From: Periconia sp. R9002
Taxonomy: Eukaryota > Ascomycota > Dothideomycetes > Pleosporales > Periconiaceae
Assembly (NCBI GenBank): GCA_023627715.1
Contig: JAMAHW010000032.1
Coordinates: forward strand, 248,001-312,000
Direction: 5' to 3'
Length of the DNA: 64,000 nucleotides
How positions within the stretch are numbered: position 1 is the first letter of the stretch; each line of letters begins with the position of its first letter. The position numbers were made by a program, and so were the translations under genes. This document shows, in pieces, positions 19,250 to 55,901 of the stretch. The notes beneath the pieces were generated by a model. The model did not search any database. It was given only the letters and a program-made list of their open reading frames with translations, and was not told the DNA's origin.

Positions 19250-19481
19250 AAAGTGTCTTCTTCTTCGCAATTGATTGGTGTAATTAGTCACAGTATTAAC
19301 ACTGGTTTGAATTTCACAGGTAACGTCCTTGGCTGGGGACGTGATTTGTATTATTATAAAGCTTAGTTAATCAATAGTTACCTATGAGCACGTCCCCAGC
19401 CACGGACGTTACTTGAGATTCGAAACTAGTGTTGATACCGTGACTGATTACACCAATCAATTGCGACGAAGAAGACACTTT
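19250..19481. mobile_element. Foldback MITE, copy 1 (full-length)
   Basis: A 232-bp element whose two arms of about 94 bp are near-perfect inverted repeats around a loop of about 45 bp. It begins AAAGTGTCTTCTTCTTCGC and ends with the complement, GCGACGAAGAAGACACTTT. The arm continues through AATTGATTGGTGTAAT and ends at GGCTGGGGACGTG. There is no coding capacity, so it must depend on a transposase elsewhere. Two related copies lie at 23960-24034 and 55672-55818. The superfamily is not certain. The TTAA/TA flanks of copy 3 would fit a Tc1/mariner- or PiggyBac-type target site. Confidence 0.85.
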
Positions 19482-21595: not shown

Positions 21596-23851
21596 ATGGG
21601 AAGCGCGCTGGGTTGCAAGATGTATGCATCATTGATTCAAGGCCTTCGACATATAAGGGAGCCTGCGCTTCTCTCAACCCGCCTCTCTGAATCTCCGCTT
21701 CTTGAATCGACTTCAAAAGACTCTATATGTGCCATGTGCAGCAAAATCGACTTTGATTCCTTTGCGAAAGGTCATCGGGACCCGGGGCGTCAGCCATTCT
21801 CCGCAGACATCGATCTAAATTATAGTCGATCCATGACCTGTAATTTTTGCGCCCTGGTGCAGCATTGTCTTGACCAAAACGAAATCGTAGATTCACATCT
21901 GTTAGGCGACATCCGGGGCGTTCATAGCGGCCATGAGCTTCACCTCTACGTTGAAAACAAAAAACTTGAATACAGTATCCAGCGGTGTGAATACAGCACC
22001 AAGTCAAAGCTAGACCGCTTCTACCATACCTCTGAACGATATGCACCCACTGAGCTGGTGGATTGGCTGGAGAAATGTAATAAACATGGGTGTCTTCCGA
22101 ATGACTGCAACTCAACATCTCACGAAAAGCTTCCCGAAAACTTCCGCGTTATTGACGTAGAAAGGAGACGCATCTATAAACCTCCGGCTTTTGTCAAGTA
22201 TTGTGCTTTGAGTTATGTCTGGGGATCTATCAACCAGTTCTTTCTCACGAAAGAGTCAGAAAAAGAGTTGGAATGTGATGATGGAATAAAAAAGATTGAG
22301 CGGCTTCCACAAACGATTCTTGATGCTATGAGTTTGTGCAGGGATATTGGATGCCGTTACCTCTGGGTTGACAGCTTGTGCATCGTCCAAAATGACGATC
22401 ATGACCGGCATCACCAAATTCGTTCCATGGCTGAGATATACAGTCGGTCATATCTCACAATTATTGCAGCAGCAGGCGATGATGCAAATTCTGGACTGCC
22501 TCCATACGGAAAGTTTGGGAGACTACCACAAACGCAGTTACTTGTTGTCAACCTCCCGGGACTAGGCAGCTTCATGGGAAGCAGAAGTCCCCAGATTGCT
22601 GGGGATAATATAGCCAAATCGATCTGGGCTTCCCGAGGCTGGACACTACAAGAGCAAATCCTTTCTCGCAGAGTCCTTTTTTTCACTGGCGCATACACAT
22701 TTCTTCGATGCGAGTATTCGTTGTGGACTGAAGATTTCGGTCTCGGTTTCCAAAGAAACCATTTCGAACATGAAGACCAAGAATGGGATCTCCCTCTTCC
22801 AGCGTTCTACAGACGAAAATCGGTGGACGGGCACATCTACTCAAGCACTTTCAAGCACATCCTTGGAGAGTATCTGCGAAGACAGCAAAACTTGACCATT
22901 TCGGCAGATATCCTTAACGCCATAACAGGCATCTTGGTCAGATTAAAAAACGAAATCGGGGAGCATCTCTGGGGTTTACCGTCAAAACGATTTGCGGCCG
23001 CCTTACTGTGGAAATCTGAACGGCCATCTCCCGGCAGGCGACGCTCTGGATTTCCCAGCTGGTCATGGGCGGGTTGGTTACACGAGAAGGATTTTGGTAA
23101 ATCCTGCGCGGACGGGCCACCTCACGACATCTATGGGGATGGTGCAGATGATGATGTTACAAATCAGTCGGCTCTCTACTGCTGGATTGTCGGATCAAAG
23201 AAACAAGAGATTCACGAAATCGAGCAGCTTGCTATTGACTCTATCTATCAGCAGTTGGGGGACAAAAAAAGGAGCATGAGAGTCGATGAAGCTAACGATC
23301 GTAGCTCTGGGGCGCTTCTGGATGCCCTTCAAAGTGTATTTCGTCACCCACCAGCCACGAAGCTTTCGTTTGAAGTTTTTAGCAAGCAAATCCAGCAGAA
23401 CCCTCCTCTAGAGGATTGCGAGATCCCACAACATCTATTGATATGGGCTAGCTGTGCGACTCTAAGTGTTGACCAAAATTACCACAGCCTAGTAGGGGCA
23501 TCGGGAGAAGCTGGAAGATTTTTTCTGCGGGTACGCCCAGGAGGTGCTATAGTCGGTGCCATAGATTTGGCATTGGGATGGCGAGAATCAGAAAAGACCC
23601 GCCAAAGTAATAGCATGGAGTTCTTTGCTATAACTGTCGGTGTCTACCCATCCGAGTCTGTAGGACCTTTCTATAATGTCCGGGTCCGAGTCATGATGGT
23701 CGAGGCTTTCGCTTGCAACGCATCAGACAAGGTTGATTCTCAGAGTTCATTTCCTTGTATTTATCGGCGGATTCAAGTTTCACTCACTGGTATTCGCCTT
23801 CAGGATTGGGCTAAGTGCAGACCGGAAAGCAAATTCGTAGTTCTTACCTAA
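21596..23851 (+). CDS. HET-domain (heterokaryon incompatibility) protein 1
   Basis: Single-exon protein of 751 residues, counted from the first true ATG of the frame. The N-terminal 200 residues carry a Cys pair (ICAMCSKIDF, MTCNFCALVQHC) common ahead of HET domains. The HET domain runs from about residue 200 to 360: YCALSYVWGS, LPQTILDAMSLCRDIGCRYLWVDSLCI, RSMAEIYSRSYLTIIAA and SIWASRGWTLQEQILSRRVLF. HET domains execute cell death when genetically different hyphae fuse and are structurally related to TIR domains. The C-terminal half has no domain I recognise (FPSWSWAGW is a usual downstream motif). The full open frame suggests an intact gene despite its AT-rich, MITE-flanked setting. Confidence 0.92.
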   Translation: MGSALGCKMYASLIQGLRHIREPALLSTRLSESPLLESTSKDSICAMCSKIDFDSFAKGHRDPGRQPFSADIDLNYSRSMTCNFCALVQHCLDQNEIVDSHLLGDIRGVHSGHELHLYVENKKLEYSIQRCEYSTKSKLDRFYHTSERYAPTELVDWLEKCNKHGCLPNDCNSTSHEKLPENFRVIDVERRRIYKPPAFVKYCALSYVWGSINQFFLTKESEKELECDDGIKKIERLPQTILDAMSLCRDIGCRYLWVDSLCIVQNDDHDRHHQIRSMAEIYSRSYLTIIAAAGDDANSGLPPYGKFGRLPQTQLLVVNLPGLGSFMGSRSPQIAGDNIAKSIWASRGWTLQEQILSRRVLFFTGAYTFLRCEYSLWTEDFGLGFQRNHFEHEDQEWDLPLPAFYRRKSVDGHIYSSTFKHILGEYLRRQQNLTISADILNAITGILVRLKNEIGEHLWGLPSKRFAAALLWKSERPSPGRRRSGFPSWSWAGWLHEKDFGKSCADGPPHDIYGDGADDDVTNQSALYCWIVGSKKQEIHEIEQLAIDSIYQQLGDKKRSMRVDEANDRSSGALLDALQSVFRHPPATKLSFEVFSKQIQQNPPLEDCEIPQHLLIWASCATLSVDQNYHSLVGASGEAGRFFLRVRPGGAIVGAIDLALGWRESEKTRQSNSMEFFAITVGVYPSESVGPFYNVRVRVMMVEAFACNASDKVDSQSSFPCIYRRIQVSLTGIRLQDWAKCRPESKFVVLT

Positions 23852-24473
23852 TATACTATCATGAATGAAATTAAATTTATTTCTTTTAAAATGTAGTTCA
23901 TGCTATACTTAATATTAGGATATAAAAACAATATAGGCAACTATTCTAACTATATCTTTACGTTACCTGAGATCCAAACCAGTGTTGATACCGTGACTGA
24001 TTACACTAATTGATTACGAAGAAGAAAACGCTTTGATATAATTATTTAGACATATAGTAACCTACTCTATATAATCTAATCTCTACCTATTACTAGCATT
24101 ACAAACATACGCAGAGGTGAAGTAGAGGTAGACCTATATGGTATCAAACTCTTACTTTTACCTAACCTCCTACCTATATATTACATAACTCTACCCCTAC
24201 CTAACCTATATCCATTTGCCAGTCTAGGGGAGAGGGAGAAGACGAGATGGAGTATGCGTAAAAGGGAATGGCGTGTAAGGAATGCAGTGAGGCGGTTATA
24301 TAGGTAGTTAAAGATCTACATATGCGTGACTGTGACTGTATCGATTAGTTGATGGAATACCTCCCTACACCCAGGATACGTTATCACGAGGAAGAGGGGT
24401 TGGTCAAGACACAGCAGTGTCGAGAGTAGGAAATGAAGGTAAGCTACGTAACCAAACGAATAAATTGAGCATG

Positions 24474-28900: not shown

Positions 28901-29378
28901 AATGAGATAATCACTAAGATTAATCTCAGCGGCAGACAATAATAAGCAGTTGGCACTTCATGCCAATTTTTCGAACGCTTCTGAATTTTCCTTGCTTTTC
29001 CCAAGCCATCGTCGGTCGATGTCTCGTATTAGGCTTATCTCAGTGAACTCAGCCGTCTAATCAACTTTGTGGGATGACAAATGCCGATTTGACGTCTAAG
29101 GGATTTATTATAATTTATTAGAAAGAACTCTATCTTTCATTTCTCAATTTTTATCTATAACCTGAGTAAAAAATCTCCATTTTGCTAACAAATTTGGACA
29201 AGTAGGGCCATCTCTTCGCCTAGCTAATATTAGGGACACCGCCACGCCTGCATGACTAGTGTGGCTGAGCCGTAGGTGGGGGCCGATAAATACATGTGAT
29301 CCACCACCCTTCCGTCTCATTTACACGTTGCACAGTTTCGATTTCCAACTTTTATTTCGTCATGTCGTAGCAGGAGGG
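28901..29378. other. Intergenic before HET gene 2
   Basis: AT-rich patch around 29095-29200, otherwise plain. It holds the DCD1 3' flank and the HET gene 2 promoter. An upstream in-frame ATG at 29259 would add 40 residues to HET gene 2. Confidence 0.45.
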
Positions 29379-31610
29379 ATGGCAATCAGCAACATCTATA
29401 CGCCGTTGAAGTCACGGGGGCGAACCATTCGACTTTTGAACCTACACCCTGGCCCGTTTCATGACCCCATCAATGCTACTCTAATTGAGAGCACCATTGA
29501 AGAAGCTGCACGCAATGGATACACAACTATTTCCTACACATGGGGAAGCATCGATACGACTAGACAGGTTCTCATCCAATGCAATGAAACTCAGTATTCT
29601 GTTTCTGAGAATCTTTTCGACATTCTCCGCCGGCTGAGACGGCCTGACCTCCCAATCATTGTCTGGGCAGATGCTCTGTGTATCAACCAAGCTGATATGG
29701 CAGAGCGGACTCATCAGGTCGGTCTTATGGGCGAAATATACAAGAATAGCTCCGAAACCGCGATATGGCTTGGCGAACCAGCTATAGATGATGACATGTT
29801 CGATCGCTTCCGCCATTGCCTCTCCAAAGAGAACCTCGCATCCATATCGAAAGGTGGCCCGCCTCGAATAGCTTGGCAAGGGAACAAGCGAGACAGAAAA
29901 CTTCTTCAAGAATATCTCTACTCATTGGGAGATACTTGGCAGGGCTCAGGAAAAGAGTTGGGTGCGCGAGATGATGTCTTTGGGGCTTTCTGCCTCATAC
30001 AGAGTATCGCGGACGGTACCAGTGCGCCTTTGTTCAAACGATTCGAAATCCGGGGGAAGATTGGTTCCCCTTTCTTAGGACTTGAGTCGAAGGCTGATGG
30101 AATTTTGGATGGATTAAGACGGTTGATGAGATCACCTTGGGTGAGTATTCCCGCTATCTTCTGATGCACAATCAAGTCACCATTTGGGATTATTGTGTTC
30201 AGAAAATTCCAAAAATCACTTACCTTATCGAAGCTGACAATGTATTCACAGTGGCAACGAATATGGGTGATTCAGGAGACAGTATTGGCATGCAAAGCCA
30301 CCGTGCATTTCGGCATGCTCTCGGCTCCATGGTCAATGCTGGCTACCGCTGCAGCTCGCTGGGCGCGGGACCACCATTCGCTCTGCCTAGATCTTTCGGG
30401 AACTTTTCAAGGTCACGATGTATTAAACCAGTTCAGTAACGCAGTCCTTCAAATTGCTGGAACTCGCAACGATCATCAAAATTCGGCAACGGGATCTACT
30501 TTACTTTCATTGCTCTGGAAATTCCGACCGCTGGAAGCAAGTGACAAACGTGACAAGGTCTACGCATTGATAGGATTGACGACGGATTGGCAACGGCGTC
30601 CGCCCATGGAGCCAAATTATAACATCGACACGGCCACGGTGTTTCTCCGGACAACCGTCAACAACGTTCATCGACACCAATCACTAACAGTACTTGCCGG
30701 TGATCTTGAAGCCACGCTCAACCGAAAAAGGATAACCGGTTTACCTTCTTGGGTGATGGACTGGTCACTTCCCTGCCTGCCCCAAGAAATCAACAGAGTC
30801 GCTTCACTCGGCATCTACAACGCGAGCGGCAGTCGACGCGGCCCCGTGCGCCTCCACCGAAAAGAATCAATCCTAGAAATGGAAGGCGTCTACGTCGACT
30901 CCATCATCGCCGTGGGCAACGTAAGTCGCCACACGCAAATCAGCGACACGCACGCCGTGATCCGCGAGTGGAACTGGATGTGCCGGGCGCAGGAACGCAA
31001 ACGCAGAAGCGCCCGCTACCCCCTCACGCAAGGGACCTACCAAGACGCCTTCTGGCGCACCCTCATCGGCGACCAGGTCCACGTCGCCACGGACTCCACC
31101 CTCAAGCACCGCCGCGCCACGCCAGAAGACGAGAGTTCGTTCCGCTCCTGGTACATGTGGTCGCGCTGCATCTCGCGCGACACCATCGACCGGCGCGCCG
31201 CCTTCTCCGAGCAGGATCTCGCAGAGGGCATCGCGTCCATCAACTACTCGCTCAAAACCGCGACCGCGTCGCGGCGCTTCTTCATCACGAGGCAGGGGTT
31301 CATGGGCATCGGACCCAAGACGACGGAACCCGGCGACGTCGTGTACACGGTTAAGAACAGCCGCGTGCCGTTTGTCCTGCGCCTCGCTGCCAATCGGGAA
31401 TCTTCTCGTGGTTCCTCTTCCTCGCTGTGGCAGAGTTCGCAGTGGCAGACCCTCATCGACGGCTCTACCAAGTTCAAAAACAACGAGAGGAGGTCGAGGA
31501 AGTCGGGGGCGAATTTCCGGTTGGTTGGGGATTGCTTTGTGTATGGGGCTATGGATGGCGAGTTTTTTCAAAAGGGGGACGAGTTGGTGGAGAAGGTGTA
31601 TCTGGTTTGA
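29379..31610 (+). CDS. HET-domain (heterokaryon incompatibility) protein 2
   Basis: Exons 29379-30140 and 30252-31610 (intron GTGAGT...CACAG, 111 nt) give 706 residues. The HET domain is N-terminal: IRLLNLHPG, YTTISYTWGS, PIIVWADALCINQADMAERTHQV and GEIYKNSSETAIWLGE (about residues 12-130). After the intron comes WQRIWVIQETVLA, the second conserved block, then DKVYALIGLT and LPSWVMDWSLP. The likely role is a cell-death domain in non-self recognition, as for the other HET gene in this window. From about 30770 the coding sequence becomes much richer in G+C than the first 1.4 kb. I chose the ATG at 29379 because HET proteins of this type start shortly before the RLLxLxPG block. Confidence 0.92.
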
Positions 31611-41270: not shown

Positions 41271-42153
41271 ATGTCAGCCATCTCACGACAAGACGAAAAG
41301 TTTGCCTCGCTCGGCCTCTCCAAACCCACTCACGCAGAGGGAGGAGCAAAAAGAGAAGAAAAAGGCGGAGGAGAAGGGATCAACGCATACACGCGAAACC
41401 TCTCTTCCTCATCCCCTTCGAACCCCGTGCTGGTTCTGCTACATGGGTATCCCCAGAGTAGCTACATGTGCGTTTTACCTATTTTCTCAAAGCTTCCATT
41501 CTTCTCGATTTATCTCTCTCTCGACCAGTTTCTCTTTTGCTTTTCTTCTTGCTTTCAAGAAGATCGATTAGTTTCAGATGCACTCGTACGCATCCTACCC
41601 GTTTCAATCTACTTACACTCTCCCCCTTCCCAAGGCAAAAAAATCCATTTACATCCTCACCCTTAAGTTTCTCTCCTTTCCCTTCCCAGTAAACCCTTCC
41701 CTCCACCCCCAACCAAACAACATCATCTACCCCAACCTCCTAACATTCATCAAACCCAGGTGGCGAAACCTCATCCCACACCTCCCCCCATCCGCCCCTC
41801 TCTACGTCCCCGACCTCCCCGGCTACGGCGCCAGCGCGCCCCTCCCCGATTCATTCAAGTTCCACGACAAGCTATCGGTCGGCAAAGCTGTTCTCGGGGG
41901 CTTGAAGAGCGCGTTAGCAGCAGAGTCCAATGGTAAGGAGAAAGAGGAGACACATGTCGTACTCATTGGACATGATCGAGGCGCGAGAGTCGCGCATCGG
42001 CTTACGGTTAGTAAAGAGGAGGTTGGGGAAGTGGGGGTTAAGGTTAGGGGGGTTTGTTTGGTGGATATTGTGAGTTCTTTTCTTTTCTTTTGTGACTGCT
42101 GCTGTTCTCTCCTTGTCCCCTCTCTTCCCTCTCCTAATTCTTTCGCAAATCCT

Positions 42154-42196
<43 letters not shown>

Positions 42197-42795
42197 AACC
42201 CCCTTCCCCCTCCCTTCCACAACCACCACCACACAAACTAACCCCCCAACCCCAAAAGGTCCCAACAACCACCCAATGGTCCGGCGCCAAATCCCCCCAA
42301 GAAATGAAAACCTACTGGCACTGGGCCTTCCTCGCCAACCCCTCCATCGCCATCCCGATGATCACCGCATACAGCGGCTCCAAATGGTGCTCGAGCTCCA
42401 TCTCCGCCTGGCTCGGCAATTCCCCACGCGGACTCGACACGTTCCACGCCTCCGACTCCCTCTCCGTCTACGCGTCCTTATTCGAAGACCCCAGCGTCAT
42501 CGCGGCGAGCTGTAAAGACTACGAGGCCGGCGCGGGTGTGGACGTGGACGCGCAGAAAGAGGATCAGGAGCGCGGGAGGAAGATTGGCGTGCCGTTGCTG
42601 TTAGTGTGGAGTGCGGGGAACTTGGGGAGGAGGTTTGATGTGCAGGGGAGTTGGGTGGAGTGGGTGGAGGACGAGGTTGAGATTGACGGTTTAGCGCTCG
42701 GCGATGGAATTGGACATTTTGGAGCCGAGGAGGCGCCCGTGGAGACGGCGGAGAGGGTTAATGCGTGGTTGGGGAGGACGGTTGGGAAGGTGTGA
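41271..42795 (+). CDS. Alpha/beta hydrolase, haloacetate dehalogenase / epoxide hydrolase type
   Basis: Exons 41271-41467, 41760-42069 and 42259-42795 give 347 residues. The fold is clear: VLVLLHGYPQSSYMWRNLIP with the HG oxyanion loop, VPDLPGYGAS, and the nucleophile elbow LIGHDRGARVAHR. Asp as nucleophile is the mark of haloalkane/haloacetate dehalogenases and epoxide hydrolases. The cap region TYWHWAFLANPSIAIPMI resembles haloacetate dehalogenases. The C-terminal catalytic His is in GIGHFGAEEAP. The substrate is unknown. The first intron is long (292 nt, CTAAC branch) and the second (189 nt) contains a CCCATA expansion, so automatic translation through both introns can give a falsely longer protein. 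Confidence 0.85.
42151..42197 (+). repeat. (CCCATA)n microsatellite inside an intron
   Basis: About seven perfect CCCATA units within the second intron of the hydrolase gene. It lies about 60 nt before the acceptor. Confidence 0.9.
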
Positions 42796-42936: not shown

Positions 42937-44118
42937 TTAGTAGCTATACCTAACGCCGTGCACGTCTCCAAAATGAATTCGGGTCCCGTTCCCGAAGTTA
43001 TTGTTCGATATGGTGTTCTGATTCTGCGGCGCTGAAACAGCCTGACTGAGAACAGTCTCAGCAGGCACACCACTATCTGATGGGGCGTACCGGTCCAGCA
43101 CGGCCCTCGTAACTGCTGCTGCCGTGATGGCAGCGAAATCCTGCCAGCGCTTGTTCTTGTGGCTGTCTGCGTAGTCACAGATGCCCTTGATGACGATGCA
43201 CGGGACCTCTTCCCACGCGCCGGCAGCCTCCATCTCAAATGCAATTAGCTGATGCTGTTTAGCGAGCGCATCGCGGTGGGTACCAGACTTCATGACTGCA
43301 TCACCTGACCCAATGCGTCCGACGAAGATGGCCGGAGCCGGCGCCTGCTCGGGTGCCATAGCGGTATCTCGCTTCTCGTCCAAGCGCGCCCGCACCACCA
43401 GATGATCCTCGTTGCAGCCTAGCTCTGCGCAGCAATTCTGAGTCGCCTCGGGGCAGGGGCCGTCGCCGCACAGATCGCATGCCTTGTAATGCCGGTGTAC
43501 ATATGTCGGCGCGAAGAGCTTGTCTTCAGCAGAGCCTGGGTATCGATAGTCAGCCTGCCGCCCATCACGGACGGCGGCGGCCTGTATATCCTGTAGATGC
43601 CTGGCGGCCTTTCCTCGCAACCGCCCTCGCCCAAGCTCCGTCTCAAAGACAGCGACGAGATTATGAATTGTCCGACCCGGCTTGCGGGGACCATCTTCGA
43701 TCGTGTCTTTGGCTTTGAACTCGGTTGGGTATTGCCGGCCAAAGTCGTGCTGGACGACGAGTTTGCTGATTACGACGTCTCCTAGAAGAACCTCGCTAGT
43801 GCCAACACGTGGTACGCCACCGCATATGCCCACGAGGAACACAAGCTCCAGCCTGCTATAGCTCGAGCGAAAGCTGGCCGCCGCTCCGGCCGCCGATGCC
43901 TTACCCATACCAGGGAGTAGTACTAGCACGACATCGTGCTTCCCAATGGTACCCGTCGTGTACTGGTTGGGGTCCCCCGGCGCCTTCCCATAGGGATCGC
44001 CGTCTTCGTCCCAGAATCGATCGAAGAGTAGGGACACAGCATCGAACTCAAGACTCAACGCGCAGACGATACCGACACGAAAGTCCTCGCGACAGGCGGG
44101 CTGTTTCTCACCAGCCAT
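42937..44118 (-). CDS. Nucleoside-phosphorylase-fold protein with C-terminal NLR-type motif (candidate NLR effector)
   Basis: Single exon, 393 residues. Residues 13-340 form a PNP/UDP-phosphorylase-like domain as found in fungal NLR proteins: FRVGIVCALSLEFDAVSLLFD, LVFLVGICGGVPR, GDVVIS and the ligand-site strand AFEMEAAGAWEEVPCIVIKG followed by ICDYADSHKN. A Cys-rich insertion (ACDLCGDGPCPEATQNCC) is usual in this subfamily. After a short linker the last 25 residues carry ISNNNFGNGTRIHFGDV. The same pattern opens the NLR encoded 500 bp upstream on the same strand. In fungi such matched pairs of C-terminal and N-terminal short motifs are amyloid-signalling partners: the NLR templates the effector. 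Whether the enzyme domain cleaves nucleosides or nucleotides during signalling is inference. Confidence 0.85.
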   Translation of the reverse strand: MAGEKQPACREDFRVGIVCALSLEFDAVSLLFDRFWDEDGDPYGKAPGDPNQYTTGTIGKHDVVLVLLPGMGKASAAGAAASFRSSYSRLELVFLVGICGGVPRVGTSEVLLGDVVISKLVVQHDFGRQYPTEFKAKDTIEDGPRKPGRTIHNLVAVFETELGRGRLRGKAARHLQDIQAAAVRDGRQADYRYPGSAEDKLFAPTYVHRHYKACDLCGDGPCPEATQNCCAELGCNEDHLVVRARLDEKRDTAMAPEQAPAPAIFVGRIGSGDAVMKSGTHRDALAKQHQLIAFEMEAAGAWEEVPCIVIKGICDYADSHKNKRWQDFAAITAAAVTRAVLDRYAPSDSGVPAETVLSQAVSAPQNQNTISNNNFGNGTRIHFGDVHGVRYSY

Positions 44119-44618: not shown

Positions 44619-47600
44619 TCATAATAGGGGATTTGGTTTTGCGAAGTTGAAAAAGAGGACACGACCTGATCTGCACCCGATGGCGGCCACTGTTCCATGG
44701 AAAGTCGATGTTGATGGTCGATACTCTGATGGCAACCAGAGAAGATTCTGGTCTTGGTATGAGAGCCAGGTATATTCAGTGTCGAAGCCGTATGATGCAA
44801 GTCGGGGCAGGGAATCGAATCGCTCTAGAGGTTCTGTAGCAGTTTGTACTTCAAAAGTGCCGAACTTGGTATGTAAATGGTCAAAGTTAGTCTTCTCAAA
44901 CTGTAAATCCTTTCCGAAGGACGTGTGGTCGACCGCAAGTGATGACATGCATTGGCCAGTCGCCAGATCCCAGATCTTGATAGTCTTATCTTCCGCGGCC
45001 GACGCAAGGCGTGCCGCGTTGTGCGACCAGGCCAGGGACCTCACATAAGCGCCATGTCCCTCAAGTGTTAATATATGCCGACCGGTTACGAGGTCCCAGA
45101 TTTTGATGGCGAAACTGGGCGATGCTAATGCGAGCTGGGTCATGTCTTGCGACCCAGCCACAGCACTTACCCAGCCACTGGAGTCCTCGATCGTTGACAC
45201 GCACTGGCCCGTTGCGGCATCCCATATCTTGATGGTGCAGTCTTCTGATGCGGAAATTAGTCGAGTTGAATCACCGGACCAGTTTATAGAGTTCACCCAA
45301 TCTTGATGTCCCTCAAGCGTTAATATACACTTGCCAGTCGCTGGATCCCAGATCTTGATGGTACAATCATCTGATGCGGAGGCAAGACGGGCTGCGGTAT
45401 ATGACCAAGATATGGAGTTAATCCAGCCGTTGTGGCCTACGGGTATCGATACATGCTCGCCGGTCTGGATGTCCCAGATGCTGATGGTGCAGAGGTCAGA
45501 TACTACTGCAAACTGGCTTGTGTCGTACGACCAGGACATGAGTCTTATCTCGTGGCCGAGACCCTCGAGCGTCGATATATATTGACCAGTTCCTGGTTCC
45601 CAGATTTTGACGACATGGTCGGCTGATGCTGATGCGAGGTAGACCGCATTGTATGACAAGGCTACAGAGGTGACCCTCGCGCCGTGGCCCTCAAGTGTTG
45701 AAACATATTGACCATTCGCCGGGTCCCAGATCTTGATGGTACGATCATGCGAGGCTGACGCGAGTCTAGCTATGTTGTTTGACCAGGATATGGCCCTGAT
45801 GTTGTGGCCATGGCCTTCGAACGTCGATATGCATTGGCCAGTCGCTAGATCATAGATCTTGATAATGCTGTCGAATGCCGATGCAAGCCGGGTTGCGTCG
45901 TGCGACCAGGTTATGTTATGAAGACGACTTGCGACCTTTATAGTTGATGTACACTGGTTGGTTGTCACGTCCCAGGTCTCGACAGTTCCATCGTCCGCAG
46001 CGGATTTAAATTGGTTCGTACTGCTGCGCAGCCAAGTTATAGATCGAACATAAGTGCCTCCACTTTGAAGGGTTGTTATGCACTTATTAGTCGCCTGGTC
46101 CCAGATCTTGATAGCATTGCCTTTATACGATATAAACGCGAACAAGGCCGCAGTATGCGACCAAGAAAGAAAGGAGAAATCATCCTTGCGGCCTTTGATT
46201 ATCGTTTTACACCGGCCAGTCGCTCGCTCCCAGATCTTAATGGTCTTGCTCTGGTGTAAGATAGACGCAAGCCACAGGGCGTCATGCGACCAACTCATAA
46301 ACTTAACCGATATATCGTCCCCAGGCTCTGGTATATCCTGATCGGCCACCGTCTCTTTGAGATTCGCGGAATCGTCGTCTGATGTTGCTGCGAGCAAGGC
46401 CGGGTCCTGTGACAAGTCCGCAATGTGGGCAGTGTCGGTATCGTCGGATCCGGTGTCGCCCTCGAACGTCGATATACACTGACCGTTTACTGGGTCCCAA
46501 ACCTTGATAGTATGATCTTCCGACGCTGTTGCAATCCAAGCTGTGTCTTGCGACCAGGTAACGGAGGTTACGGATTTGCTGTGGCCTTCTAGTGTCAATT
46601 CACACTGCCCAGTTACCGCGTCCCAGATCTTTCCAGTCTTATCTTCTGACGCCGTCGCAAGCCTGGCTGCATCGTGTGACCAGACCACAGAGTTGACTGA
46701 TCCGCCATGGCCCTCGAGCGTCTGTACGAGAAACGTGTTCCATCCTGAGTCCACAACTGGAAAGGGGGATATCCAGGAGGGCATTTGGTCGATGAAGGCA
46801 TTTCGGATTTCGCTGTTTTCGGGAGAAAAAACCATAGCCGAATTGTAGAGCTGCAGAGGAAACCTCGTTATGACAGAGATGCAGTTCAGAGTGAACCGGC
46901 TCGCGTCCCGGAGAAATTCTTCAAGCATGGTCCCAGGCTAAGGCAGGTTAGAGCAATTCTTGAGCAGAAGCTTCCCTGATCAGTGATGACATACCTGGAC
47001 GAATTTCAATAGGGCATCTAGCATGGCGATACTCGCCCTTATCTTCTTCAGGAGACATAAGGCTTCCAACCAATGAAGTAGGTGGCGCTGAAGAAAGAGG
47101 TCGATTTGCACCTCGGTGACGCGACCCTTACTCTGCTCTATATGATACACCCAATACAGGCAGGCATACTCGACATGTGCTGGCAGATACATCTTAACCA
47201 CGCTGGGATCGACTCCCGAGCCAGCCACACCAGGAGCTTGTAAATTACATACATCTCTCTTTAGATTTGCCTCTAGGACTTGGAGGCAGCGATTTGCGAG
47301 TCGCTCGTGGCACTCTCTCTCGTCCACGCAGAACTCATGCCGTCTGACAGGATCGACAAGAAAATCGCGGAAAGACAGGTGGAAGATCCTGATAGGGGCG
47401 TCTGGCTGGGAAGATACATTGACGAGGGAATGGAGAGTTCTGAGCCGGCCGCTTATGGCTGCTGGGCGGATGCCTAGGAGGTCTGCAAGAGCAGCGATGG
47501 GGAGAGGCGCCGCGAGAAGGACAATGGGGCCAACAACAGCACGAAATTCATCCACCAAGCGACTCCTCTTCAGGCCAGCGGTTCCGTCGATCAGCCGGTT

Positions 47601-48665
47601 GAGAATTGGAAGATATGTCGATTCGAGCTTGTCCAGCTCGGAATCACCGGCGTTGGACCGATATTCCAGCACTTTCTCCAACTGACTTACGGGATCTGAC
47701 CAGACTGGGTCTGCGACAAAGCGGCATATGGTCGTGGCGAAAATGAATAGAGGGACGGCCATTTGGGCAAGGATTTGGATGGCGTTGTTGCCAGGCCATC
47801 CCGATGGAAGTTGCAGATCCTCATAGTAGTCTTCTCGTATTCTTGTGAATTCAGACTGAAAGAATAAGAATATGTCGTGTTCAATCACGGGCTCGGGTAT
47901 CTGGTGCAGAGCAATGTCCTTATACGTGCCCGTTATTGACCTGAAACCAAGCCGGATCGGCAGCTCGGGCCGGCTGGTGATGAATATCCTCATGCGTACC
48001 GAAGTCAGTGCCTTGACCTGTGGCAACAACTCGATAATGAGCCCGATGGAATTCTCTTGGTCGCATTCATCCAGGGCGTCGATAACAACCACGACTGGCT
48101 GGTCTAACCGCTGGACCTTGCTTAAGGGTTGTAGGATGAGCTTCTCAAACTGCTCTCGCAGGCTCTTGTCCTCAATGCCTTTGTAGGCCTCCATGGCTTC
48201 CGCCACAGAGCCCTGTAGGGCGGGTTCCCAAATCACAAGCTGCGAGGCAATCGTAGTGAAGAACAAGCGTGCATGCCCCCGATCTTCCTCGCCCCTCTTG
48301 AAGAAGAAGCTAGCGCCGAGTGCTCCCCTTTCCTGGAACGACCGAGCAACTGTGCGGGAAATGGTTGACTTTCCCGTGCCTGCCATTCCGTTCAGCCAGA
48401 ATATGCATTCGGTGGATGGATTGTCTGCCCACTCCTTGATTTCGCGAAGGAGGTCGACTCGCGTGCCGGGAAGGCAGTGTCTGTTGTGCTGCTCGGCAAA
48501 GGAGGCGAACTCTGCATCTCTAGCGGTGGGAAGGGGCTTGCGGAATGCAAGATTGTTGATGATATCGCCATGGTGGATGTGCGTATAGTCTCCAAAGGTA
48601 TTTTCAGATATATTCAGGATCTTGTGGCTCTGCGCTGTTAAGCTGGGAAAGGGACGAACGTCCAT
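44619..48665 (-). CDS. NACHT-WD40 NLR-type receptor
   Basis: Exons 48665-46995 and 46937-44619 (57-nt intron GTATGT...CCTTAG with a CTAAC branch) give 1329 residues. I start at the first true ATG; the longer frame begins at GTG. Residues 16-34 hold ISENTFGDYTHIHHGDI, matching the tail of the downstream PNP-like protein. The NACHT ATPase follows: P-loop WLNGMAGTGKSTISR (near residue 93), Walker B VVVVIDALDECD, and RIFITSRPELPI. A helical arm (LPAHVEYACLYWVYHIEQS) follows. About 13 WD40-like repeats fill the C-terminal half (KIWDxxTGQC ends), one disrupted by an acidic insertion. This is the architecture of HET-E/HET-D/NWD2 receptors of fungal non-self recognition. The repeats are diverged from one another rather than near-identical. 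Divergent from the ankyrin-Sec5 gene. Confidence 0.93.
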
Positions 48666-49022
48666 CGCCGTCAAGGTAAAAAATGACACTTCGGGCTTAC
48701 AGAAATGCTAACAGACGAGAAAAGGGCCAAGCAGTACCAAAGTCAAAAGGACGGAGGATGTCAAGCATCCCTGCATAATCTCGGTATGGTTGTAGATGTG
48801 AGGAGAAACCCCGCTCGTCCCATCACGTGCTGTGCCGTGCAAGGCTGAGTGACCGGATGAAGAACAATGCAAGAGTAGGGCGTTATAGCGCACAGACCTC
48901 TTACAGTTGTCCACTGCAACTAGGTAAGACAATATCGAACTTTCCTACCTAGATCCTCGTACTGAAGCTTTACTAATTACCTAGTATACATCTAAAGACC
49001 CATCACATGTGAGAAAACGAGA
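48666..49022. promoter_or_regulatory. Divergent promoter of NLR and ankyrin-Sec5 gene
   Basis: 357 bp between two start codons. Such a short shared region suggests joint expression of the NLR and the fusion protein. No specific site is identified. Confidence 0.55.
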
Positions 49023-52000
49023 ATGGATAAGTCTCTCGCATCACCGGGCGAGGAAACGGGAAATGACAAGTCTCACAAACCACCAGGGGAGCCCGAGCTC
49101 GAAGGAGATCATGGGATCATGATGCAGAACTTCGAGAAGCATCTGGGGGATGAAGTTACCATTATCCTGCAGTGGATCTGCCAATCCATTCGGCTATTGT
49201 ACGTGGCGCAGCTGGCCGAAGCAACCAACTTGCAAACGGACGTGCTGTTCGCAAGGCTTGAATCTTGCGGCCAGTATATCAAACTAGACGGCGCAGGGCC
49301 CCCAGCGTCAAGGAAAATCAGTATTATACACCCGTCCACGCGAAAGCATATCCTCGACTCACAATTCGACGGCAAGAAGGATTTGTGGCGTTTGGGACAC
49401 CTTCGACTGGCCCACGTATGTCTCGCTGCCATCGAAAAAAGCACGCTCCAGGAACGACCTATGGATAAAGATGAATGGCTCGATCACCCATGGAGCTTTC
49501 TGCACTACGCAGCGAAACACTGGCCTGAACACGCTCGGCATGCGCGGTCCAAAGACCTTTTCAAAGAAAAAAGCGCTTTTTTTTGCACATCATCGGTTGT
49601 GGACAACTGGGTGAAGACGGTGAACCAGTTCCGAGACCTCAGGCACTTTGCCGTGCGCTTCCCATATGCGACCCATCGCTATTTTCTGGACGAAGAAAGC
49701 CCTGACATATCGGAGGAGTTCCCTATCCCGACCACTCGCTTGTCTCTTGCTTGCGGGCTGTACTTGCCTCTGTGGGTCGAAACACTCGTTGAAGCCTGCG
49801 CGCCAGACGAGAAGAAACGCCTTATGGATGCAGTCGACGATGCTGATGGCACCCCGTTGTATTGGGCCATTCAGTGCATCGGCTTGCACCCCGGGAGTGA
49901 CAACCCTACCTTGATCCGATATCTACTTCGCCATGGAGCTACTGTGGATGAGGCTATAGGGCCTGATGGTCTCTACGCCTTACATCGTGCTACAGACAGG
50001 GCCGGCCTGATGAAGGACCTACTCGACCATGGTGCCAGTGTTGACGTGACAGTAAAAGCTACTGCTCGATCGCTAAGAATCTGCAAAAAGCTCAACAGTT
50101 CCGGTTTTCGCATCGCCGAAGGGGAAACGCCCTTGATTCTGGAAGCTGCTGAGTCGTCCAGCGTTGGCAACCTGCAACTCTTGCTGGACCGAGGCGCGAG
50201 CCCGCACGCTGCGTGCACTGAAGGGAAAACGGCCCTGATGAAAGCCGCACGCTCCCACCACCCACAGGTGGTAAAATTGTTGCTGAGTGGCGAGTTCAAT
50301 CCCGACACTCGCGATAAGAACGGTTGCACGGCCCTATTGCTCGCTGCCAAATCAAGTCGGAACAGTGGTAATGATGACCGCGCTGTCAGTACAGTCCGGC
50401 AACTCTTAGATTCCGGTTTCGATCCCAAAGCCGTAAGTTCCGATGGGAGGACTGCCCTCCACTGGGCCGCACTCCAAGGAAAGACCGAACTTATAAATAT
50501 ACTCTTGGAACACGGACTCAACGTGGATGTCAGGAGTCATCACGGCTCCACGGCGTTGATGAATGCAGCTCGGGCAGGACGTCTGGAAACTGTCCGCGAG
50601 CTGATTCATGCCGAAGCGGACGTCAATGCCGTTGATAGTGATGGCAGGACAGTGATGATGTGGGCGACGAGCGGAGTCAGCAACGTGGGGGTCCTGGATT
50701 GTCTTCTTGGTCGAGGAGCGGACCTCCAGATTCAAAGTCTGACAGATGGTGACACGGTCTTGCATTCCGCTGCTCGAGATGGCAGTTCGCAAGGTGTCAG
50801 ATTTCTGTTGGATAACAAGCTAGATATTGAGATCCGCAACAAACTGGACAAGACTCCCCTGATGTGCGCAATAAAGGCAAACCGGGTGGAAGTAGTCAAG
50901 CTCCTTCTAGACCGTGGATCGGATGTCAACGCACGGGGCGAGCTGGTGAAGGAGCCTGACTTTACCGTCTCTACGTCGCCCCTGACTGAGGCGATAGAGA
51001 CTGGAAACCTCGACATATTGCAGCAGCTTCTGGCTAAGGGGGCCAAGATTGGCGTACCCGAGCACGAGGAAGAGACAGCCCTTCTATTCGCTCTATCACG
51101 TGGACGAACGGCACAGGACAAGATGACCGCTTTATTTCTGGACCGCGGAGCCAATGCTAATCACAGCGATTCTAAGACTAAGCGCACTCTCTTGCGCCTG
51201 GCAATCCGCCACAATCGCCTCCGTTGCACAAATCTACTCCTGGAGCGTGGCGCGGACGTGGACTATGAGGGAAATAACTGCTTTACTGCCTTGTTGTATG
51301 CCGCGCTGTGGGGCTATACACGGATTTTAGAGACGCTCTTGGACCACGGGGCCAATATTGAACATCAAGATAGAGTTGGCAGAACTGCCTTGATGCTTTC
51401 CGCCAAACATGGGCACACAGAAGTAGTGAAAGTGCTCCTAGACCATGGAGCGGAAGTTGGCCAGCAAGACGCACAAGGCGGGACTCCCCTGACGTGGGCT
51501 GCGTCTGAGGGGCGTGCCGAGGTCACCAGAGTGCTTCTGGACCGCGGATCGGATCCTGACCACCGAAATGCAGCTGGTATGAGCGCACTGGCATTATCGA
51601 CACAGAATGGACACTTGAGCGTTGTAGAGATACTCCTTGAGCATGGGGCTGACGTTAACATCACTACGGCCGATTTAAGAACCCCCTTGATCATTGCATC
51701 AGGATTTGGCCATGAACGGATAGCTGAGGTATTACTCAAACGAGGGCCCAATATTGAGGCCTGCGATAATGAGGGGGGTCCGGCTTTGCTCATTGCAGCG
51801 GCACGTGGGCACACTAAGATCACGAAATTACTTCTGGACTATGGTGCTCAACTGAGCTCTGTTTCGCCTTCGAAGAACAATAAAACTGCGCTAGCTTTGG
51901 CGTCGCTGGGTGGTCACGAATCGGTAGTCAGGCTTCTGCTTGAACGAGAGACGCAGATCGAGGTCTACGACGACAACGGAGACTCGCCCCTGACCTTGGC

Positions 52001-55000
52001 AGCATATAATGGGCACAATGGAGTGGTGAAGATCCTTCTGGAAGCGGGGGCAAACGTAAATATGGCCACACAGCGTGCGGACGGAGCTCTTACTCCTCTG
52101 CAGATAGCATCGAGTCGTGGTCACCACGAGGTGGTACAAGCACTTCTTGAAGGAGGTGCCGATCCTGAGACTTCTGATGGGAAAGGCCTTACGGCATTGA
52201 TACTTGCTGTCCAAAATAGACATGCCGAAGTTGTTAAGGCGCTCGCTAAGGGAGGGGCGAACGTAGAAGCACTCGACGAGAACGGTGATACGGCACTGCA
52301 TTGTGCAGTTCGCAACAGAAACGCCGACGTTACAAAAGCGCTTGTTGAAGGAGGAGCGAACCTCGAAGCTTTCAACCAGAACGGCAATACGCCATTGCAA
52401 TTCGCCAGCCGGAGAGGGTACTCTCGGAATGCAGAGGCTCTCATTGCGGGAGGAGCCGATACTGAGACTCGTAGTTCAAAAGGGTATACAGCACTGATAT
52501 ACGCTGTCCTTAACGGGCAAGCCAACGTCATAAAGATTCTCATCGAGAGAGGAGCTAGTGTGGAGGCCCTTACTGAAAGTGGCCACACGCCATTGCTGAA
52601 TGCCAGTATCAAAGGCTATGCTAAATCTGCCGAGGCGCTCGTTAAAGGGGGGGCCAATATCGAAGCTCGTACTCAAAAGGGCAGCACGGGACTGCATTGC
52701 GCCAGCTTCAACGGGCATACTGCAGTTGTAAAGATTCTCCTCGAGGCAGGGGCACGCACTGACACCCTCGACCAAGACGGCGATACAGCATTACATTGTG
52801 CCGTGCTTAACAAGCATGCCGAAGCTGTAAAGGTTCTCCTCGAGGGAGGCGCATCCATTAAAGTCCGAGATGCTCGCAGCAATACACCGTTGATCATTGC
52901 GATTACCAAGGACAGCGAGGCATCATTCGAGGTCCTTCTACAGGCCGGCGCCGATATCAACGCCTCCGGGGAAGGGGACATGTCGGCCCTAAGCTACGCT
53001 GCTCTCCAAGGGCGCACAAGAATGACCAAGATGCTCCTCGAAGCAGGGGCCAAAGTCGAAGGATGTCCTGGAGAAGTCGATTCACCCTTGATATGGGCCG
53101 TGAGAAAGGGTTCCTTGCCCACGGTTCAGGCCCTTCTAGAGGGCGGAGCTAAAGCCGGAATTGAGGCCCACGATCATGATGGCCATACGCCCTTGACTCG
53201 TGCGGTAGGGCACAATTCTGCCGACTTGATTCGAGCCCTCCTCGAAGCCGGGGCAAATATCGAAGGCCGACATAAGAATGGACGAACACCTTTGCTTATT
53301 GCAGCAGCTGACGGACACCCAGTTGCTGTGAAGACGCTTCTCGAAGCGGGGGCGGACGTTGATGCTGTTGATCCGAGCAAGGGCTTGACTGCTTTGATGT
53401 GGGCCTCATGGATGAGGCACAAAGAGGTGGTTGAAATCATACTTAAGAAAGTAGAGGAGACTTCCCATCTTGAGGTCGGCGCGGCGGATGACCTAGTATT
53501 AGCTTGGCTTCTCAATCGCTTCGAGTTCTTGATGGCGAAGTTTCTGTCCACGGTAAGCAAGTACAGGACAGAGATCAAGGTGATGCGACGCCGCCTTGAG
53601 AACTCCGAAAAGCCTAGTCGCCGAACCATTGCATCCTACATGAGATGCGTCGACAATCAGGTCACCATTATGGAGGATGAGCTGTCCTCTTGTGACCTGC
53701 CTGGATGCTTGGAGTTGTGGGAGAAAATGCTGGCCTTTTTAACAGATCTACTCTCCCGGCAAGGGATCTTGGGCGAAGTGCTTGAGCTCTGGCAGAGCGT
53801 CCAGAGTTTAGTAGAGGGTGCGACTCAGCAGATCGTAGCTGTTGGATACGAGGGACAACTGGAGGAACGTTACCGACTCTCTCAGTCGGAGGCAGCCGGC
53901 TTGCAAAAACAGACGGTTGAACTTATTGACATGATCCGCGAGGAAGCTCTGGTGTTCTTCGAGTCGCCTCCCGAAAATATGTCATTGCCTTTATCACCTT
54001 TGCCGCAATCCTCAGAGTCTCCAGGCATACCTAACACCTCCGAAAGGCCCCAATCGACAGACTTGGGGGACAATTTGGATCTAAGCAGCGTGCCCCATCC
54101 TGCCCCTAAGCGTGGAGAGACCTGGGAGAAATTTGCATTCTGGCCACCATGGTCTAACTCTAGGAGCGGAGCCCATTATCTCTCCGAAATGCTAGCCCTC
54201 GTCGCGTCAGGTGCGTGTGATATGGCCTCCATCTCGCCCATTTGGCGAGAAGATGCAGATGGTTCGGTGAACCTGAGGCGCTTGGTCGGTGTGGCACGGG
54301 AGAGGTGCGTAGCTGCTCTCTGTGAGGCTTGGCGTCGGGATTTCAAAGCTTTCAAGTTCGTGGAGGATTGGGAACAGCCATACGACGGTGGCGGCATTAC
54401 CATGATGCCGGCCTCTTTGGCCGCGTTCGAAAGTGCCGTTTTGAGCGGGATGCAGAAAATACTTTCCATTCCCGGCGCCGTTTCTAAGCCCGAGGCTGCC
54501 GATGTCGTTCCACCACCAGCACCGGGGTTGTGTCGGATGATAAAGAGCCAATATACCACGACGATCTATGTTGTTTTGGCTGGCATGGTCGAGAATGCTG
54601 AAAAATCTGTGACAAGTGTAGACGAGGACGAAGAGGACAGCGATGTAGAGAGTAATACAGCCGCGAGTGGCCCGGCGAATGGACGAGCCGAGAAAATCGA
54701 AATCGACGGCGCCGCCAGTGCTTGTGATCAGGTATGTCATCCTCTAAGCAGTGGCTGTGAAATGGTTCTCCGTTACCTAACTGATGCGCAGAATACGCGC
54801 ATGCTCTTGACGATTGGAAATATCCAGCGCCTCCAAGCTGAAGTCTTGCCCAGCCTCAATGACCAACTTGAGAACGTCATCTCCACCAAGTTCGCCGACG
54901 ACACAAAAGAGCTCTCCACCAAGCTCGCCGACGTGCTGCAAAACATTGACGCACGTATCTTCCAGTCATACACGCGGCCGATGGTCCAGAAATTGGCCGA

Positions 55001-55484
55001 AGCTATCAGCGCCGGCGTGACATCACCCAACTGGGTGCCGGCGCCGGGCCGAAAGCCACGCAAAGCGAGTCCCTTTGTGTATCAGGTTCTACGAGAGCTC
55101 GTAGTGGTGCAAAAGAATGTCTCGACAACGGCGTCGGCGACTCTGGCGGCAAAGGTGATTTCGTTTCTGCTGGAGATAGTGTCCGCCGAGATGCTCAAGG
55201 CGTTTAGCAGTTATACGTACTTGGACGTCGAGCCCTTGATGCAGGCCACGATCGACTCTGAATTCCTCTATCAGATCCTGGCGCACTACACGACGGTGCG
55301 GACGTCGAATCTCCAGTATCGTGGATATTATGCGCTCGACAACCGCACAGATGATAAGGCTCGCCATGCTCTCACAATCGAGCTGCCCGAGCTGCGCAAT
55401 TTGCTCCGGCGCCTGAAGGCGGCTTGTATGGGGGAATTTATGTGCTTCCGCAAGCCTGTGCGACATGCATACAAGCATGACTAG
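49023..55484 (+). CDS. NLR-arm / ankyrin-repeat / exocyst Sec5 fusion protein
   Basis: One open frame, 2133 residues after removing a 60-nt intron (54732-54791; GTATGT donor, CCTAAC branch, GCGCAG acceptor) that is in frame and stop-free. Residues 40-260 resemble the winged-helix and arm that follow NACHT in fungal NLRs (IILQWICQSIRLLYVAQLAEA, FLHYAAKHWPEHARHA), yet no NACHT domain precedes them. Residues about 270-1475 are roughly 35 ankyrin repeats (GxTALxxA, VVKxLLExGA). From about 1490 the sequence reads as the exocyst subunit Sec5: LGILGEVLELWQSVQSLVEG, LSPLPQSSESPG, PAPKRGETWEKFAFWPP, GAHYLSEM, RERCVAALCEAW, MPASLAAFESAVLSGMQKIL, ARIFQSYTRPMVQKL and RRLKAACMGEFMCFRK. The N-terminal third of a normal Sec5 is absent. 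Sec5 identity is from memory of family motifs, so needs a search. A role as NLR bait or decoy is inference. Confidence 0.85.
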   Translation: MDKSLASPGEETGNDKSHKPPGEPELEGDHGIMMQNFEKHLGDEVTIILQWICQSIRLLYVAQLAEATNLQTDVLFARLESCGQYIKLDGAGPPASRKISIIHPSTRKHILDSQFDGKKDLWRLGHLRLAHVCLAAIEKSTLQERPMDKDEWLDHPWSFLHYAAKHWPEHARHARSKDLFKEKSAFFCTSSVVDNWVKTVNQFRDLRHFAVRFPYATHRYFLDEESPDISEEFPIPTTRLSLACGLYLPLWVETLVEACAPDEKKRLMDAVDDADGTPLYWAIQCIGLHPGSDNPTLIRYLLRHGATVDEAIGPDGLYALHRATDRAGLMKDLLDHGASVDVTVKATARSLRICKKLNSSGFRIAEGETPLILEAAESSSVGNLQLLLDRGASPHAACTEGKTALMKAARSHHPQVVKLLLSGEFNPDTRDKNGCTALLLAAKSSRNSGNDDRAVSTVRQLLDSGFDPKAVSSDGRTALHWAALQGKTELINILLEHGLNVDVRSHHGSTALMNAARAGRLETVRELIHAEADVNAVDSDGRTVMMWATSGVSNVGVLDCLLGRGADLQIQSLTDGDTVLHSAARDGSSQGVRFLLDNKLDIEIRNKLDKTPLMCAIKANRVEVVKLLLDRGSDVNARGELVKEPDFTVSTSPLTEAIETGNLDILQQLLAKGAKIGVPEHEEETALLFALSRGRTAQDKMTALFLDRGANANHSDSKTKRTLLRLAIRHNRLRCTNLLLERGADVDYEGNNCFTALLYAALWGYTRILETLLDHGANIEHQDRVGRTALMLSAKHGHTEVVKVLLDHGAEVGQQDAQGGTPLTWAASEGRAEVTRVLLDRGSDPDHRNAAGMSALALSTQNGHLSVVEILLEHGADVNITTADLRTPLIIASGFGHERIAEVLLKRGPNIEACDNEGGPALLIAAARGHTKITKLLLDYGAQLSSVSPSKNNKTALALASLGGHESVVRLLLERETQIEVYDDNGDSPLTLAAYNGHNGVVKILLEAGANVNMATQRADGALTPLQIASSRGHHEVVQALLEGGADPETSDGKGLTALILAVQNRHAEVVKALAKGGANVEALDENGDTALHCAVRNRNADVTKALVEGGANLEAFNQNGNTPLQFASRRGYSRNAEALIAGGADTETRSSKGYTALIYAVLNGQANVIKILIERGASVEALTESGHTPLLNASIKGYAKSAEALVKGGANIEARTQKGSTGLHCASFNGHTAVVKILLEAGARTDTLDQDGDTALHCAVLNKHAEAVKVLLEGGASIKVRDARSNTPLIIAITKDSEASFEVLLQAGADINASGEGDMSALSYAALQGRTRMTKMLLEAGAKVEGCPGEVDSPLIWAVRKGSLPTVQALLEGGAKAGIEAHDHDGHTPLTRAVGHNSADLIRALLEAGANIEGRHKNGRTPLLIAAADGHPVAVKTLLEAGADVDAVDPSKGLTALMWASWMRHKEVVEIILKKVEETSHLEVGAADDLVLAWLLNRFEFLMAKFLSTVSKYRTEIKVMRRRLENSEKPSRRTIASYMRCVDNQVTIMEDELSSCDLPGCLELWEKMLAFLTDLLSRQGILGEVLELWQSVQSLVEGATQQIVAVGYEGQLEERYRLSQSEAAGLQKQTVELIDMIREEALVFFESPPENMSLPLSPLPQSSESPGIPNTSERPQSTDLGDNLDLSSVPHPAPKRGETWEKFAFWPPWSNSRSGAHYLSEMLALVASGACDMASISPIWREDADGSVNLRRLVGVARERCVAALCEAWRRDFKAFKFVEDWEQPYDGGGITMMPASLAAFESAVLSGMQKILSIPGAVSKPEAADVVPPPAPGLCRMIKSQYTTTIYVVLAGMVENAEKSVTSVDEDEEDSDVESNTAASGPANGRAEKIEIDGAASACDQVCHPLSSGCEMVLRYLTDAQNTRMLLTIGNIQRLQAEVLPSLNDQLENVISTKFADDTKELSTKLADVLQNIDARIFQSYTRPMVQKLAEAISAGVTSPNWVPAPGRKPRKASPFVYQVLRELVVVQKNVSTTASATLAAKVISFLLEIVSAEMLKAFSSYTYLDVEPLMQATIDSEFLYQILAHYTTVRTSNLQYRGYYALDNRTDDKARHALTIELPELRNLLRRLKAACMGEFMCFRKPVRHAYKHD

Positions 55485-55901
55485 AAGTAGCTCGGGGTAT
55501 ATATAGTTTATCAAGGAAAACATGTTATGAAGCGGGTTGAAATATATAGCTGCCCTACCACTTCTTACAATTCAAGATGTATCTAATTGCATTTCCATGT
55601 CAATAATGTGAGCATCAACATATGATACATCAAGCTCTTTTGCAGCTAGGGAGAGTGTAGGACGATACATTAAAGTGTCTTCTTCTTCGCAATTGATTGG
55701 TGTAATCAGTCACGGTATTAACACTAGTTTCATATCTCAGGTAACGTCCTTAGCTGGGGGCGTGCTCACAGGTAACTATTGATCACACACTAACTAATTA
55801 TAAAGAAGAAGACACTTTAATATAATATCATTCAGTCTTATAAAGAAACGGCCAATCAAGACCGTGCTCCGAAACCTACATAATCACGGGTAGGCTAGGT
55901 A
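55485..55901. other. Intergenic carrying MITE copy 3
   Basis: 3' flank of the ankyrin-Sec5 gene, the MITE (listed separately) and 83 bp up to the end of the decayed rhodopsin-domain gene. Nothing else is seen. Confidence 0.5.
55672..55818. mobile_element. Foldback MITE, copy 3 (internally deleted)
   Basis: 147 bp with the same left arm as copy 1 (AAAGTGTCTTCTTCTTCGCA, AATTGATTGGTGTAATCAG, then GGTAACGTCCTTAGCTGGGG). The right end is shortened and diverged, closing with GAAGAAGACACTTT. The ends sit in TTAAAGTGTC...GACACTTTAA, so TA or TTAA flanks both sides, a likely target-site duplication. It lies about 190 bp after the ankyrin-Sec5 stop codon. Confidence 0.85.

Follow-up and report, generated by a model that had tools for sequence, protein, structure and literature searches.

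A 64,000-bp stretch of the Periconia sp. R9002 genome (GenBank assembly GCA_023627715.1, contig JAMAHW010000032.1, positions 248,001 to 312,000), here called the window, was found to carry an intronless gene that joins parts of a NOD-like receptor (NLR) to the greater part of Sec5, a subunit of the exocyst. The uninterrupted frame extends from 48996 to 55484 on the forward strand (2162 codons from stop to stop), and translation from its first ATG, at 49023, gives a protein of 2153 amino acids (aa). A fusion of this kind had been proposed in an initial annotation, and both the single continuous frame from an NLR-type arm into Sec5 and the identity of the C-terminal part as two thirds of Sec5 were borne out. 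The Sec5 family profile (PF15469) was matched by residues 1497-2151 with E = 5.6e-75, covering positions 263-837 of its 837 positions, and the Sec5 part searched alone against Pfam gave E = 5.1e-76.

The N-terminal third of Sec5, profile positions 1-262, is missing from the fusion, and in alignments with three canonical Sec5 proteins residue 10 of the fusion falls opposite their residues 379, 396 and 408. According to the available text of PMC11555703, the CorEx assembly helix is N-terminal in Sec5, and because profile positions 1-262 are absent the CorEx-bearing third would not be present here. The Sec5 rod fold was recognised in the module through a match to 5yfp_B, which was absent from Foldseek's own 50 best matches and was found on a second look. 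By these comparisons the fusion has lost the N-terminal third of Sec5 and kept the rod.

The Sec5 module is preceded by 28 PF00023 ankyrin stretches, which correspond to the C-terminal superstructure-forming repeats of NLRs. About 35 repeats had been claimed earlier; this number fits the length of the region (approximately 1,200 residues at 33 residues each), but Pfam counts 28. Near-identical tandem ankyrin units were not detected at the DNA level by TRF.

The segment ahead of the repeats had been read as an NLR-like winged helix. The Pfam model GPIID_WHD is matched weakly (17.8 bits, with the cut-off at 27, and 20.4 bits in the genome-wide search), though the reading was sustained by hhalign, which aligned residues 45-175 with a profile of post-NACHT arms from the same genome at 94% probability (score 53.8, E = 9.9e-8, a value for this single comparison with residues 1-270 as the query), while the best of 100 shuffles scored 22.9. 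The profile comprised nine of ten candidate arms from other NLR-like frames, drawn from 12 loci out of 36 matches, one arm of 126 aa being excluded. No NACHT or NB-ARC domain was present among the 13 Pfam families matched by the fusion protein at E up to 1. The predicted protein corresponds to the rear half of an NLR, a winged-helix arm followed by ankyrin repeats; lacking a NACHT of its own, it does not on its own amount to an integrated-decoy NLR. Own-genome searches, which covered 42.9 Mb on 267 contigs, gave 19 matches with the first 459 residues as the query, and as all except the gene itself fall within the ankyrin part (query 336-447), no close paralogue of the N-terminal part was found. 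Single-sequence structure prediction of the first 333 residues had a mean pLDDT (predicted local distance difference test) of 41 and was not used.

Table 1 Features of the fusion gene and its surroundings. Positions are those of the window.
Feature	Position	Strand	Evidence or remark
Fusion gene, intronless: NLR arm, ankyrin repeats, C-terminal two thirds of Sec5	49023..55484	+	2153 aa
Post-NACHT arm of NLR type, residues 45-175: winged helix plus the helices after it, NACHT absent	49155..49547	+	hhalign
Ankyrin region, 28 PF00023 stretches; ends approximate	49830..53450	+	Pfam
Sec5 module, profile 263-837 of 837, equivalent to yeast Sec5 343-971	53484..55448	+	Pfam and comparison with yeast Sec5
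Dispersed repeat, ~115 bp	55666..55786	+	182 bp past fusion stop; many contigs of the genome
NACHT-WD40 NLR, head to head with fusion	44619..48665	-	Pfam NPHP3_N 5.2e-35, WD40
Amyloid-like motif ISENTFGDYTHIHHGDI near NLR N-terminus	48561..48611	-	Sequence
PNP_UDP_1 (nucleoside phosphorylase superfamily), behind NLR on the same strand	42937..44118	-	Pfam E 9.8e-15
Matching amyloid-like motif ISNNNFGNGTRIHFGDV, PNP_UDP C-terminus	42961..43011	-	Local alignment score

Origin of the Sec5 module

Sec5 was matched at two loci only in the Periconia genome, the fusion and a canonical SEC5 gene on contig C21 (384819-388090), whose three exons are spliced to encode 1052 aa. The fusion is thus not the sole SEC5 locus, and the cellular target gene persists separately, as in an integrated decoy. 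Exo70 gave one match; the canonical EXO70 (C21, 375003-376151) and SEC5 genes lie about 9 kb apart. Exocyst subunits are mostly duplicated in land plants, which the available text of PMC11433146 contrasts with animals and fungi.

The search for the same fusion in other fungi, suggested in the initial annotation, was successful. PFICI_04416 of Pestalotiopsis fici (1843 aa, annotated on a 6.1-Mb contig) has the same ankyrin-Sec5 architecture, differing in that its gene model is without most of the NLR arm. The two proteins are identical at 1327 of 1930 positions overall (69%) and at 76% of 643 aligned residues across Sec5, with ankyrin repeats gained and lost between them, and chance read-through is disfavoured by the shared fusion. 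This single search of a protein collection used the Sec5 region as the query, with length limits taken from the whole protein and a restriction to shared words (7971 candidates scored, four matches). The other three long Sec5 matches have no ankyrin domains listed, and one of them (1184 aa) is Sec5 alone. Database proteins combining Sec5 with PF04082 (Chlorociboria) or with PPR and other domains (Teratosphaeria) are probably merged gene models.

Comparison with the canonical gene, also proposed earlier, gave 35.9% identity between the fused Sec5 and the host's own SEC5, from which the module was not copied. It is nearer to Sordariomycete SEC5, being 48.5-52.9% identical to 13 Sordariales sequences and 45.5-48.4% to 17 from Xylariomycetidae. 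Over the same region the host SEC5 is 45.8-52.5% identical to 49 sampled Sordariomycete Sec5 sequences and 46.6% to that of the Dothideomycete Teratosphaeria; as a yardstick, Sec5 of the Leotiomycete Chlorociboria and of Neopestalotiopsis are 64% identical. Sof1, which lies upstream of the fusion on its contig, is also distant from its Sordariomycete counterpart, its first exon matching Chaetomium thermophilum at 149 of 264 residues (56%). Since SEC5 and Sof1 both diverge from their Sordariomycete counterparts, the host, judged by these two genes, is not a Sordariomycete.

Finding a Sordariomycete-like Sec5 module where the host SEC5 is of another type might signal an artefact, that is, contamination, mis-assembly or two genes taken as one. 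This is highly improbable. Contamination is disfavoured because the divergent Sof1 is on the same 382-kb contig and the repeat 182 bp downstream of the fusion is host-wide, being common to at least 32 other contigs (at least 44 matches on at least 33 contigs, with 40 of 262 candidates scored). No Sordariomycete-like canonical SEC5 was found in the Periconia genome, and P. fici has the same fusion in its annotation. The repeat occurs at two further places on the fusion's own contig and, among the matches listed, at none on C21. Within the window, apart from the copy past the fusion, it is seen at 19247-19481 and 23960-24040; it is MITE-like (resembling miniature inverted-repeat transposable elements), with inverted neighbours in places.

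In a tree of 42 rows out of the 54 aligned, both fusions were placed with Sordariales beside Diplogelasinospora (bootstrap 91, SH-like approximate likelihood-ratio test, SH-aLRT, 76) on a long stem of 1.6, and the set of 13 Sordariales with the two fusions was supported at 99/98. Host SEC5 was grouped with Teratosphaeria (99/98), though long branches meet there. Approximately unbiased (AU) tests, on groups named only after the tree was seen, rejected an origin of the fusion from the host's own SEC5 (p = 0.009, log likelihood 21 lower, 36% identity). Also rejected (p = 5e-7) was an origin from SEC5 of Seiridium, Truncatella, Neopestalotiopsis and one further row, which we take to be near kin of Pestalotiopsis. 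The same tests allowed the fusions to fall outside one clade of 37 canonical Sordariomycete rows (p = 0.095). They also allowed a grouping with 14 Xylariomycetidae (p = 0.225; with 17 in an earlier tree, p = 0.15), so that Sordariales, the donor order of the best tree, is a provisional choice.

For a tree-independent count, 83 sites were taken at which a residue common to 90% or more of the Sordariomycetes is absent from host SEC5; the fusion matches the Sordariomycetes at 56 of them and the host at 11, with a different residue at the other 16. When host and Teratosphaeria together oppose the Sordariomycetes, the fusion has 12 Sordariomycete, three host and three other residues. A weak signal in the opposite direction is that, at eight sites where host and the Leotiomycete Chlorociboria are opposed to the Sordariomycetes, the fusion is only 5:3 for the latter. 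At sites where Sordariales differ from eight Amphisphaeriales-like rows, the count for the window fusion is 17:2 in favour of Sordariales (15 neither) and that for the P. fici fusion 14:4 (14 neither), and against all 17 Xylariomycetidae the counts are 6:0 and 5:0 respectively (six neither in each).

Neither carrier, then, seems to have built the Sec5 module from its own SEC5. With Neopestalotiopsis representing P. fici, for which no SEC5 of its own was seen, the essential SEC5 orthologues of the carriers are about 46% identical, whereas the fast-evolving fusions are 76% identical; vertical descent therefore does not fit, and the simplest reading of the sequences is at least one horizontal transfer between fungal classes. 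A very recent arrival is unsupported, the G+C content at third codon positions (GC3) of the fusion, 0.57, lying inside the range of the window's other genes (0.47-0.66). No DUF3435 Starship captain was scored on the fusion's contig, although degenerate copies could be missed; matches were confined to contigs C165, C212 and C26. On C165 captain-like pieces lie no more than 3 kb from an ankyrin frame that matches the winged helix weakly (3228-3515), and the contig has further NLR-like and PNP_UDP-like matches; this region, outside the window, is possibly what remains of a Starship with NLR genes as cargo.

Constraint on the fused Sec5

The window and P. fici fusions differ at 59 of 312 canonically conserved sites and at 90 of 320 variable sites (ratio 0.67, p = 0.007), while the same ratio is 0.07 in each of two canonical Sec5 pairs. 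Among 155 sites invariant in Sordariomycete SEC5 the fusion keeps 71%, against 86% for the more distant SEC5 of the host. Judged by these substitutions, the fused Sec5 is far freer than a working subunit, yet not unconstrained.

Two other explanations of the gene bear on these figures. It might be a selfish or decaying chimera, produced by recombination between an ankyrin NLR and a copy of SEC5 and carried along by horizontal transfer with its Sec5 part unselected; the weak site constraint, the finding of just two carriers in one restricted search and the P. fici model without the NLR arm agree with this. We nevertheless regard it as unlikely, since the Sec5 frame is open in both copies despite a difference of 24% across the 643 aligned residues, and conserved sites still change less than variable ones. 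Alternatively, the fusion might itself be an effector that poisons secretion, its rod binding exocyst partners in an incomplete complex once the arm is released. A rod kept without the N-terminal third is the anatomy of a possible dominant-negative subunit, but the canonical constraint is largely gone and a partner-binding module should keep more of the invariant sites than the fusion does, which makes this explanation improbable.

The adjacent NLR and PNP_UDP genes

Upstream of the fusion and head to head with it, with 357 bp between the two ATGs, lies a complete-looking NACHT-WD40 NLR gene, the complete NLR mentioned in the initial annotation; a head-to-head NLR is also a feature of integrated-decoy pairs. 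It has one 57-bp GT-AG intron (46938-46994, read by eye), and its closest relative in the genome is 38% identical. The PNP_UDP gene follows, and the motif at its predicted C-terminus agrees with that near the NLR N-terminus at 10 of 17 residues (local score 55; maximum 51 in 20,000 shuffles of both segments). The two adjacent genes share a motif between an effector C-terminus and an NLR N-terminus, as amyloid NLR-effector pairs do. A motif pattern, written from this pair and so biased toward it, was scanned over 57 loci (60 taken, three fusion loci excluded) and matched in the NLR, at two loci of the PNP gene and at one more locus beside an NLR on C81.

From its G-N/D bigram the motif looks HRAM-like. 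In the available text of PMC9815663, the HRAM-like class (NLR12) has a single copy at the PNP_UDP effector C-terminus and at the NLR N-terminus, and PNP_UDP-HRAM genes are next to an NLR in few cases only. An assignment to PUASM was dropped, the pair being without the FxGxGxQxxGxGxF pattern given in that text. The window also contains two HET-domain (heterokaryon incompatibility) genes on the forward strand, at 21548-23851 and 29256-30164, with GC3 values of 0.47 and 0.49, below those of the other genes measured. An alpha/beta hydrolase gene (41572-42795, forward strand) adjoins the PNP_UDP gene; alpha/beta hydrolases are also found as fungal NLR effectors.

A candidate bait for a proposed cell-death pathway

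The fusion is proposed, at evenly balanced confidence, to be a Sec5 bait or sensor for a cell-death pathway formed by the NLR, the amyloid-like motifs and the PNP_UDP enzyme. The C-terminal Sec5 rod would mimic the exocyst subunit, minus the N-terminal helices that serve for placement in the complex, and the ankyrin repeats with the NLR arm would link this bait to the head-to-head NLR. Engagement of the bait by a hostile factor, whether derived from a parasite or introduced by an incompatible partner once hyphae have fused, would cause the NLR to oligomerise; the N-terminal motif of the NLR would then template the matching motif on the PNP_UDP enzyme, which would consume nucleotide and bring about cell death. 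On this reading the fusion may be, as the initial annotation suggested, an integrated decoy guarding the exocyst.

Several points weigh against this proposal. It is position that joins the fusion to the NLR, the fusion is without NACHT, and among Sordariales a head-to-head arrangement of NLR pairs is rare, being present in 13 of 225 two-NLR clusters in the available text of PMC12258605. The P. fici gene model opens with a similar peptide but omits most of the NLR arm, which may be dispensable or broken there, unless the gene model is wrong. Weak constraint at Sec5 sites also fits slow decay.

Fungal NLRs have repeatedly taken secretion as their object, since in Neurospora PLP-1, an NLR, responds to the SNARE SEC-9, and systems pairing an NLR with SEC-9 have originated in four distant fungi (PMC10197012, available text). 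The present locus likewise links an NLR to a late-secretion protein, but SEC-9 is functional and free-standing, whereas here a truncated extra Sec5 is joined to NLR parts. These incompatibility systems, together with the linked NLR, the HET-domain genes of the window and an ankyrin array that has gained and lost repeats compared with P. fici, also suggest an allorecognition determinant. The fusion would then be a polymorphic self-marker, like SEC-9 or HET-C, whose incompatible pairing with the NLR kills fused cells, and no pathogen would be watched. This appears rather unlikely, as according to the same source the ligands known for NLRs in fungal incompatibility are for the most part fairly small proteins, unlike a fusion of 2153 aa.

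The proposed bait resembles the integrated decoys of plant paired NLRs in that NLR parts carry a fused copy of a cellular protein and an NLR lies head to head. Integrated decoys are already known in plants and have been proposed in Sordariales NLRs, where CHK-2-type kinase domains are candidates and 185 non-canonical domains were recorded (PMC12258605, available text). The kinases, too, are fungal NLR-linked domains of core-gene origin, but the nine candidate kinases belong to complete tripartite NLRs, and 'exocyst' does not occur in the main text of that survey. What is unusual in Periconia is that the predicted bait protein is without a nucleotide-binding domain of its own and that the bait seems to be borrowed from another fungal lineage; unlike the plant cases, the system is fungal and neighboured by a WD40 NLR and a PNP_UDP gene. 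HET-S/NWD2 and PNP_UDP-HRAM pairs share with it an effector C-terminal motif that matches the N-terminal motif of the adjacent NLR (PMC9815663, available text), but the present locus has in addition a divergent third gene, which encodes the putative exocyst bait. In the open-licence literature, searched mostly by titles and abstract openings, no exocyst subunit fused to NLR parts was found in a fungus.

The question addressed is whether fungi use baits made from their own essential machinery, a question on which the Sordariales survey puts forward kinase decoys. Joined to NLR parts beside a complete death module, a truncated and apparently foreign Sec5 would offer fungal immunity a testable integrated-bait system, and such a system would suggest that integrated baits move horizontally. 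Tentatively, and with more doubt than confidence, a mobile immune module may be envisaged in which an amyloid-motif NLR, a PNP_UDP executioner and a separate Sec5-ankyrin bait copied from the SEC5 of a third lineage spread between fungal classes; if so, it would hand its recipients ready-made surveillance of attacks on the exocyst.

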